DNA from: Candidatus Symbiothrix sp.
GTDB taxonomy: Bacteria > Bacteroidota > Bacteroidia > Bacteroidales > Azobacteroidaceae
Length of the DNA: 64,000 bases
Assembly: GCA_031261285.1 (NCBI GenBank)
Contig: JAISKM010000070.1
Coordinates: 1 to 64,000, forward strand
Reading direction: 5' to 3'
Shown piece after piece: positions 1 through 19,616 of the stretch. Numbering within the stretch: the first letter of the stretch is position 1; every line of letters begins with the position of its first letter. A program made the position numbers and the translations under genes. The notes beneath the pieces were generated by a model. It was given only the letters and a program-made list of their open reading frames with translations, had not been told where the DNA came from and did no database searches.

Positions 1-304
1 CGATAAGAATATCAGTGGAAGTAGCGTCATCAACTGCAGCTGTCTTGTTATAGACCAACAAGCCAACGACAGTGTCGGGATCGGTTTCAACAGGAAAGTC
101 ATCGGGTAAAGCCATGAGGCCGGTGATTTCCACCTGAGGTAAGAGCAGACCGCCTTTTGTGCCATCCAACCGGAGGTTGACGCCACTGTCGGCACTCGGC
201 GCATCACCATCGCCAATGGAAACTTGGGCGGTGAGTGATGACCAATTACCGGTTACTAAAAAAGTAGTAACCAGCACTACTAAAAATGTTTTTTTCATTT
301 GCAT
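1..304 (-). CDS. Secreted surface protein, N-terminal part (truncated by window edge), same family as 18518..19616 and 20109..20465
   Basis: Minus-strand translation MQMKKTFLVVLVTTFLVTGNWSSLTAQVSIGDGDAPSADSGVNLRLDGTKGGLLLPQVEITG...VVGLLVYNKTAAV; signal peptide plus the GGLLLPQ...LVYN motif shared with two other ORFs here. Confidence 0.8.
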   Translation of the reverse strand, partial: MQMKKTFLVVLVTTFLVTGNWSSLTAQVSIGDGDAPSADSGVNLRLDGTKGGLLLPQVEITGLMALPDDFPVETDPDTVVGLLVYNKTAAVDDATSTDILI

Positions 305-640
305 ATAATTTTTTCGCCTCCCTGTCCCCCTTCGTTCGGCAATTTTTTAAAATAACAAAGCGTGAGGAACTATAAAACTCTCTGTTCTCAAGGCTCAGCA
401 AAGCCCATACTACCAAAGAGCAATAGCCTCACGCATCTGATTACATATAAAATAAAATTATATACAAAAAAAGATACGTGAGCGCTTTTGCCCACATCCC
501 GGTAGTAATTCGAATTTTGCTGATTCTGAGAACGGGATATGTCTTAAACGCTACGTTTTTTATAAATAAGTCCTTCTACACAATTGACGACACTTCGTCT
601 GCATAGAATTGGTGCAAAGGTAAGCATTTTTTTTCAAACT
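305..640 (-). ncRNA. Candidate structured 5' leader RNA with promoter (copy A)
   Basis: Homologous in order and structure to 18163-18517; promoter TTTG...TTACCTTTGCA at about 613-638; complementary loops at 516-522 and 396-402; closing stem 360-367/427-434; conserved TTGCCGAACGAAGGGGGACAGGGAGGCGAAAAAATTATATGCAAATG before the start. Confidence 0.7.
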
Positions 641-838
641 ATCAAATAATTTTGAAAATAATTTCAAAAATGTTTGGAAAATTGAAAAATATGTTTTACA
701 ATACCTCTGAAGAGTTGATGGAGTACATGCACAACCTTTATGTGTATGAACAAAACGAGATGTCATCGTTTTACTTTTCCTTAATGAATTGCACAGTAGG
801 GATTGTCTGGTCGCTCAAAAGCGTTACTAAAAGATTTG

Positions 839-17989: not shown

Positions 17990-18162
17990 TTATACCTTCA
18001 ATTTGTAATTCAATTTGCAAATATAATACTTTTTTTCGAAACTGAAAACTATTTTTTTGTAAAAGTGATAATCCAGATGTAAATTAAGATCAATCGCGCA
18101 CATCAGTGTGCTGTAAGATACTTCGGATTTTGCAAGTGTTTTAAACTATTTTTTATTTTAAT

Positions 18163-18517
18163 TTGGTGATTTAAAAAAAATGCTTTACCTTTGCAGCAAT
18201 TTGAAACCCGCAAAGCGTTGCGAAAAGGTGCGAAGGTCGTTTGATAACAATGCGAAAAGCGTTTAAATATTACTTTGCTTTAGAAAATCGGCAAAATTTT
18301 CAAGTAATACAAAGTGATAGACAACAAATGCCTTGCGTTCTTTGTTTGTATATAGTTATATTAGATACAAGTAAAGGCGCAGGTTCTGTTGTTTCATCTG
18401 TATTACTGGGTGTTTGCCGATACCTCTAAAGCGGATGAATTTAACAGTTCCTGCGCTTTTTTATGTTTAAATTTGCCGAACGGAGGGGACAGGGAGGCGA
18501 AAAAAAATTATGTACAA
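18163..18517 (+). ncRNA. Candidate structured 5' leader RNA with promoter (copy B)
   Basis: Promoter TTTG(18163)...TTTACCTTTGCA(to 18196); hairpin loop CGGCAAA (18289-18295) complementary to loop TTTGCCG (18413-18419); closing stem GCGCAGG(18377-18383)/CCTGCGC(18450-18456)+T6; conserved TTGCCGAACGGAGGGGACAGGGAGGCGAAAAAAAATTATGTACAAATG. Confidence 0.7.
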
Positions 18518-19616
18518 ATGAGAACATTTAATTTTAGGAGATTGCGGATCAAGTCCGCAATGACACTACTGGTTGCCGGTTTTCTGGTAACTGGTAACTG
18601 CCCAAGTGGCAATCGGTAGCGACGGCACCGTTACGCCGGGTGCACTGTTGGATTTATCACAAGCCACTGATGCCGGCGGCTTGTTGCTGCCACAAATTGA
18701 GAGCGCAGACACGCTCATTGAGGAGTTAAGAAAGCCCGGCATGCTGGTTTATAACAAAACAGATGGCAAAGTTTACACCTATAATGGCACCTTCTGGGCT
18801 GTCGGTGGTGGGGGATCTGACACTCCTTTGATGAATGTGGCGATAACGCCCAGCATACCCGTGGCGTTATACTCGACCGGCGGTTTAAAACAATTGAACC
18901 CTGCCATTTCTATTGCCGATTCCACGACGATAGTGTGGAAAAGTAGCAATACAGATGTGGCTGTGGTTAGTGATAAAGGTATAGTATCTCCTGTGGCAGA
19001 TGGGAATGCAGATATCACAGTTTCGTTTGGTTCACTAACCTCTGATCCTGTAGCTGTAACAGTAACCACACCTACTTGTGGTTTGCCTTTTACCGCTCCA
19101 TCTGATAAGGTTTATAATACTGCAAATTATAGTAACACCGGTTTAACTAATCTGTGTTGGACTACGACCAATTTACAGGAGGCTGGGCAAATTGCTACTT
19201 GCTACAGTAATAATTGTACTTCTTATCCTACTCGCGGTTATTATTATACGGTTGGAAACGCATCTGCTGCTTGTGCAGCTCTCAATGGAGACGGCGCCAT
19301 AGGCTGGCGATTGGCTACTTTGACGGAACATACCGCTTTGAAGGATGCTTTCCCTAATTTAGAAGCCGGTGTCGGTACCGTGGGTACTACCAGTACTTTA
19401 CAAGCCGCATGGAATTCAATCGAACATGCCGCGGGGGGCAATTACACAAATGGTGGCACTCGTACATGGGATGGCTGGAACCAATATCTTGAATTCTTTA
19501 CAAACGAAGCCTATGATATCGGGGTATGTTTCAATGTTGGGGCGGGCGCTTGGATCGATAATAATAATGTCAATGGGGCTGAATATTGGCCGTTGCGCTG
19601 TGTACGCGATTTGTGA
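18518..19616 (+). CDS. Secreted surface protein with BIG2-like and FISUMP-type C-terminal domains; frame broken at a 7-bp repeat in the signal peptide
   Basis: Signal peptide MRTFNFRRLRIKSAMTLLVAGFLVTG in one frame (18518-18619), mature domain AQVAIGSDGTVTPGALLDLSQ...WPLRCVRDL in another (to 19616). Confidence 0.75.

Follow-up and report, generated by a model that had tools for sequence, protein, structure and literature searches.

Two leaders in the window

The window, which is the first 64 kb of its contig in a genome of 2.83 Mb, contains two leaders, copy A on the minus strand and copy B on the plus strand, and each ends at the start of a gene (Table 1). Members of this family have a common order of elements from 5' to 3'. 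A promoter and the P1 hairpin are followed by a 5' domain, S1, in which stems P2 and P3 enclose block X1, the loop K of hairpin 1 and block X2. Then come P4 with its AT-rich apical stem and a 3' domain, S2, in which P5 encloses X2', the loop K' of hairpin 2 and X1', and finally a U-run, the P6/P7 tail and the start codon. The series X1-K-X2 of S1 is complementary to X2'-K'-X1' of S2. The folding energies of leaders A and B lie well under those of shuffled sequence (z = -4.6 and -5.6, respectively), and the only Rfam match in the window is a tRNA.

Table 1. Positions of leader features and adjoining genes in the window
Feature	Copy	Position	Strand	Remarks
Leader	A	297-646	-	read from sequence
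Promoter, Bacteroidota type (predicted)	A	615-646; TTTG 646-643, TACCTTTG 622-615	-	read directly; same elements before aligned copies
Hairpin P1	A	574-608; TTCTA 608-604 / TAGAA 578-574	-	varies among copies, pairing kept
5' domain S1	A	496-552; P2 5' strand 552-549; P3 538-534/500-496	-	local stems covary over 39 diverse leaders
S1 code parts	A	X1 533-527; loop K 522-516; X2 508-501	-	X1 pairs with 390-384, X2 with 414-408
Hairpin 1, GAAT-CAGCAAA-ATTC	A	526-512; stem 526-523/515-512	-	
P4	A	428-482; CTCACGTATCT 482-472 with AGATGCGTGAG 438-428	-	base of rod (putative antiterminator); AT-rich apical stem
3' domain S2	A	360-434; P5 arms 5' GCGTGAGG 434-427, 3' CCTCACGC 367-360	-	
S2 code parts	A	X2' 414-408; K' 402-395; X1' 390-384	-	
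Hairpin 2, GGGC-TTTGCTGA-GCC	A	406-392; stem 406-403/394-392	-	
U-run after P5	A	349-359	-	terminator-like
3' pseudoknot (predicted)	A	314-370; P6 GTTCCTC 370-364 with GGGGGAC 330-324; P7 TTGCC 342-338 with GGCGA 318-314	-	
Secreted-protein gene	A	1-304; ATG 304-302 or 298-296	-	3' of leader; cut by contig end at position 1
Leader	B	18162-18520	+	read from sequence
Promoter	B	18162-18193; TTTG 18162-18165, TACCTTTG 18186-18193	+	
5' domain S1	B	18258-18331; P2 18258-18264 with 18326-18331; P3 18269-18277/18310-18318	+	
S1 code parts	B	X1 18277-18284; K 18289-18295; X2 18302-18310	+	
Hairpin 1, GAAAAT-CGGCAAA-ATTTTC	B	18283-18301; stem 18283-18288/18296-18301	+	
3' domain S2	B	18377-18456; P5 arms 18377-18383/18450-18456	+	
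S2 code parts	B	X2' 18400-18407; K' 18412-18419; X1' 18425-18432	+	
Hairpin 2, GGGT-GTTTGCCG-ATACC	B	18408-18424; stem 18408-18411/18420-18424	+	
U-run and pseudoknot	B	18447-18500; P6 18447-18451 with 18486-18490; P7 18473-18477 with 18496-18500	+	
Gene	B	18518-19616; ATG 18518	+	Big_2 and Big-like domains

An earlier note on this DNA had placed both leaders where we find them, and had noticed that the loops of hairpins 1 and 2 are exact reverse complements in copy A and likewise in copy B, which direct reading of the sequence confirms. This 7-nt complementarity is real but is not the whole story, as X1 and X2 pair too. The S1 loop region is complementary to its S2 counterpart over nearly its whole length, and the K loops make up one third of it. 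Two stems that the note had drawn in copy B need correction: the stem round hairpin 1 is ATTACTTTG/CAAAGTGAT rather than ATTACTT/AAGTAAT, AAGTAAT being part of block X2, and hairpin 2 is closed by GGGT/ATACC rather than by GGTG/TACC. The note had also put the start of a secreted-protein gene after both leaders; this is so, but the copy B gene is frameshifted shortly after its start and is open again from 18606. Compared with its paralogues this gene has a short deletion (window 18518-18640) among the GGTAACTG repeats in the part that encodes the signal peptide; such repeats point to slippage or phase variation, unless the assembly is in error. In copy A, a terminator-like hairpin followed by ATCTTTTTTT lies directly after the S1 domain (497-476, minus strand).

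Copies of the leader and their pairing code

The structure had been described as present in two copies; the genome has at least 52. The conserved 3' tail was found at 39 places in the genome at up to 3 mismatches, versus 6 for the reversed control. Of these 39 tail-match loci, 29 went into R1, a covariance model for the 3' domain, which gave 52 matches in the genome at E 2e-11 or better. In genomes G000, G002 and G014 many contigs break off directly behind a leader, and the count therefore probably understates the number of copies. Most copies in the genome precede paralogous secreted proteins, which where tested had Big_2 domains, weak FISUMP similarity or no family, and several are arranged in tandem as leader-gene-leader-gene. 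Three copies have a different kind of gene after them (DUF2158, DUF2971 and, in the third, one with no Pfam match). Most of the copies examined face a gene in the transcription-sense orientation. At L016 and L018 a complete leader is preceded by another module of promoter, P1 and S1-like sequence that lacks an S2 of its own; the arrangement looks as if two leaders had recombined.

In a 29 x 29 matrix of S1 versus S2 pairing energies, the own partner was the best one in both directions for all 29 copies of this genome, own pairs having a mean of -36.3 kcal/mol versus -15.4 for swapped ones. The same was true of 36 of 36 leaders from two related genomes (-31.8 versus -10.9 kcal/mol). This preference across the wider family excludes chance complementarity in copies A and B, and as a pattern the copy-specific code is well established.

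The code also differs far more among copies than the frame around it. Leaders of G014 and G002 are about 94% alike elsewhere; the mean pairwise difference is 0.56-0.58 in the code columns, defined as those with a difference above 0.4 and nearly all of them within code blocks, versus 0.06 elsewhere. Among eight G000 leaders the difference was p = 0.453 in the code, 0.100 in the frame and 0.226 at the fourfold synonymous sites of the adjacent gene, with 0.196 in the P1 region (seven leaders). The code exceeded the fourfold sites in all 28 pairs of G000 leaders, which are not independent and have only 33-49 fourfold sites each. Compensated sites are expected to change more slowly than neutral ones, yet the code changes faster than fourfold sites, which indicates diversification, and the sequence comparison points to its serving copy-specific pairing. 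Over-dispersion of codes within genomes was considered and rejected, because in a direct test codes within a genome were no further apart than codes between genomes (p 0.72; 36 leaders, two relatives). Selection for orthogonality is therefore read from the rate of change only; the codes look random, and this is already enough for orthogonality. It is possible, with the balance tilting somewhat against it, that each leader has its own barcode, renewed by selection at duplication, and that the genome holds dozens of co-resident, mutually orthogonal two-state RNA switches.

Window copy A, L023, L027 and L029 have X2 in common but differ in X1 or K. Blocks can thus be shared singly, which keeps hairpin-templated mutation among the readings. 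G-U pairs are nearly absent from the code blocks (7 of 719 cells), and this scarcity could reflect copying between the arms at the DNA level. As to whether orthologous leaders keep their code, L058 and L059 have the same one, but the two records are nearly identical there.

Two mutually exclusive folds

The leaders can be drawn in two ways. In the local fold, P2 and P3 form around hairpin 1 and P5 around hairpin 2, with the U-run following. In the other fold, X1:X1', K:K' and X2:X2' together with P4 make a single long rod. Homologs strongly support a covarying structured leader RNA with loop-loop pairing, as the earlier note had proposed. In 36 leaders of the two relatives, 97.7% of the 1329 rod cells are paired (slid controls, 36-42%), with 256 double-change cells against 68 +/- 6.5 in shuffled alignments, 19 pairs with two-sided changes and several Watson-Crick types at most code positions. 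K pairs with K' in 99.6% of cells, with two-sided changes in 6 of the 7 pairs, which is the mark of kissing between complementary loops. In 39 diverse leaders, whose alignment blurs the code, 80.3% of rod cells are paired and 251 show double changes versus 84 when shuffled. The same 39 leaders pair in 88.0% of the cells of the local fold (slid controls, 43-52%), with 92 versus 35 +/- 5.5 double-change cells. In the G002/G014 set the local fold is nearly invariant, and those leaders therefore provide little evidence on it either way. The bases of P4 and P5 pair in 97.8% and 98.1% of cells (39 leaders); they draw on one common strand and so exclude each other. Higher up in P4 as drawn (columns 91-96), only 44% of cells are paired.

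G-U pairs exceed A-C mismatches both in the rod (43 versus 13, p 4e-5) and in the local fold of the diverse leaders (121 versus 41, p 1e-10), favouring pairing at the RNA level. It bears on a DNA-level explanation. On that view the inverted arms would serve a mobile or duplicating cassette as its site of recombination or of single-strand hairpin formation, and quasi-palindrome correction would keep a fast-mutating code matched. The many dispersed copies with conserved frames, the almost perfect Watson-Crick pairing of the code and the absence of the leader at orthologues of one downstream gene would suit such an element. A DNA palindrome does not predict the G-U excess, though, and the leaders have a conserved promoter upstream, a gene start downstream and a single orientation; copying between arms would also equalise the hairpin stems, which are non-complementary between them. 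We consider this explanation very improbable.

After P5 the T fraction is 0.76 over 12 nt versus 0.29 over the next 12 (39 leaders). The H-type pseudoknot P6/P7 follows the U-run, and its 5' strand lies within the 3' arm of P5; in the 39 diverse leaders its mean score is 27.0 versus 18.6 (sd 8.6) for shuffled tails. With the pseudoknot left out, the rod is on average 6.9, 14.2 and 11.8 kcal/mol lower than the local fold in three genomes, and in window copy B no more than 1 kcal/mol separates the two. A simple terminator scan did not list P5, whose stem is long and interrupted. The leaders thus combine mutually exclusive covarying helices with a GC stem and U-run before the coding region, as attenuators do. 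Attenuation by a leader peptide was rejected: by inspection the leader alignments have no consistent leader-peptide frame, and no shared frame with regulatory codons was seen, an MYK frame standing by the start in some copies only.

The earlier note had predicted a kissing-loop RNA. The loops do pair, but a static kissing loop is only part of the structure, the pairing belonging to the long rod. A two-state attenuator is the better fit, because the rod competes with a pair of local hairpins and a U-run comes after the second of them, and we regard a two-state leader as the best mechanism. On the structural model, the leaders probably act in cis, the rod as antiterminator and the local hairpins as terminator, with a copy-specific and fast-diversifying code. 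Hairpin 1 would form first in transcription, and the emerging 3' domain would zip onto the 5' domain, aided by the kissing contact K:K', so that the rod would be complete before the 3' arm of P5 exists. The rod would then block the P5 terminator and the gene would be on, while the freed 3' arm of P5 could pair downstream as the P6/P7 pseudoknot just before the start codon. If some signal held the 5' domain as a hairpin, P5 would form at the U-run and the gene would be off. Alternatively P6/P7 could act on translation, since the 3' strand of P6 is downstream of the U-run. X1, K and X2 would be the code by which a leader recognizes itself, and its fast diversification among duplicates is plausibly explained if common codes would let copies cross-pair.

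The leaders might instead act in trans, with terminated leaders or shorter 5' pieces building up as small RNAs. Their S1 would pair with S2 only in nascent transcripts of their own gene, which would give each copy its own antisense-like code. Copy-specific complementarity, the near absence of G-U from the code, the terminator-like hairpin with seven T right after S1 of window copy A and the S1-like modules without their own S2 upstream of L016 and L018 are all in keeping with this. However, every parsed leader has both halves, so intramolecular pairing should usually win, and the mid-leader terminator is not general; control in trans therefore seems distinctly improbable.

A riboswitch reading of the leaders is possible. 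Two alternative folds round a U-run are the usual riboswitch plan, the 5' domain has a conserved AAGCGTTT(A)AGATATTA, and single-copy members occur across the class. P1, P2, P3 and hairpin 1 would then be the aptamer of a metabolite or protein sensor, and the code the neutral drift of helices that need only to pair. Neutral drift, however, does not predict a paired code that differs twice as much as the fourfold sites of the adjacent gene, and the downstream genes are unrelated (surface proteins, lipoproteins, a glycosyltransferase, a methyltransferase and a histidine kinase), so that without a common function they suggest no ligand. Such a sensor is in our judgement unlikely.

Distribution and relation to known RNAs

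Rfam had been proposed as a check, and no leader tested, including loci at the level of the order and class, has a match to a known class at the gathering score; at E up to 10 there were low-scoring chance matches only. BTnc231 (RF04180) was rejected as a candidate: it gave one weak match, none of its listed genome matches coincides with a match of our second model, R2, in the same genomes, and none reaches the cut-off. We found no description of the family in the literature searched. A Flavobacterium transcriptome study describes Flavo-1, there called widespread in Flavobacteriaceae, together with 64 structured 5' regions, some of them conserved without Rfam matches (PMC9723704). Some members of the leader family may be among those 5' regions, unrecognised as a family. 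Flavo-1, Bacteroidales-1, Bacteroid-trp and others are, like the leaders, structured RNAs of Bacteroidota, but the leaders have no Rfam match. With trp-type leaders, riboswitch platforms and the T-box the family has in common serial exclusive strands (a:b, b:c, c:d), a GC stem with a U-run and a position in the 5' leader. It differs from these attenuators in having no leader peptide, specifier or known ligand, and in having a three-block copy-specific code, unrelated genes and up to 50 or more copies per genome.

In ColE1 RNA I/RNA II, CopA/CopT and Sib/Ibs, specificity is determined by the complementarity of loops, and this differs from copy to copy, as in incompatibility groups. The leaders are alike in this, but in kissing-loop antisense control the partners are on opposite strands or in two RNAs, whereas those of the leaders lie in one transcript, about 115 nt apart. 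The UpxY (NusG-paralogue) leaders of Bacteroides capsule loci exert copy-specific control of surface loci by leader read-through, with specificity residing in the protein. The copy-specific control by read-through that we propose resembles theirs, and no UpxY-type protein gene adjoined the leaders examined.

Of 61 genomes from the genus and order, 22 had R1 matches; the numbers of matches in two relatives were 49 and 40. Model R2, which is the P5/S2 domain of 39 leaders and does not include the upstream S1, matched 45 of 147 genomes of the order and 32 of 197 in a class sample, mostly of other orders. As an independent check, the upstream S1 complements S2 at z below -4 in 14 of the 16 order-level matches in which P5 could be located and in 10 of 10 class-sample matches, of which L216 is from the leaders' own order. 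A DNA pattern matched uncultured Bacteroidia, Tannerellaceae, Parabacteroides sp. 52 and a roe-deer Bacteroidaceae MAG, and similar DNA occurs in records of Parabacteroides distasonis and Phocaeicola massiliensis. Because tail and code vary, searches with a long exact pattern of the tail, and with a strict pattern of S1 over 394 genomes, matched nothing. A phage collection contained no match to the leader, and a single viral-contig match was rejected as not being a leader. This is a real and widespread RNA family of Bacteroidia outside Rfam: almost one in three of the genomes sampled from the order has it, and gut bacteria, P. distasonis for one, are among the carriers. If the switch model is true, 50 or more orthogonal RNA switches would coexist in one genome as a natural library in which the frame is fixed and the code varies. 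RNA-RNA specificity, interference between paralogues and compensatory evolution would then be directly testable, and the library would be useful for circuit design.

Leaders stand before many surface-protein genes. The downstream genes examined, which include glycosyltransferase 8, methyltransferase, DUF805, histidine kinase, CsgG-like, OMP beta-barrel and lipoprotein-like genes, have no common pathway, and orthologues of one of them occur in two relatives without the leader. At L089:673-1765 the second leader is separated from its gene by an inserted transposase-like sequence, which we take to be of the ISAs1 type. The secreted genes also contain a palindromic repeat (ATTGCGGATCAAGTCCGCAATGA and variants), at times more than once, in frame within the sequence that encodes the signal peptide; examples are L090:2530-2860 and L088:2190-2400, and many other copies have it too.
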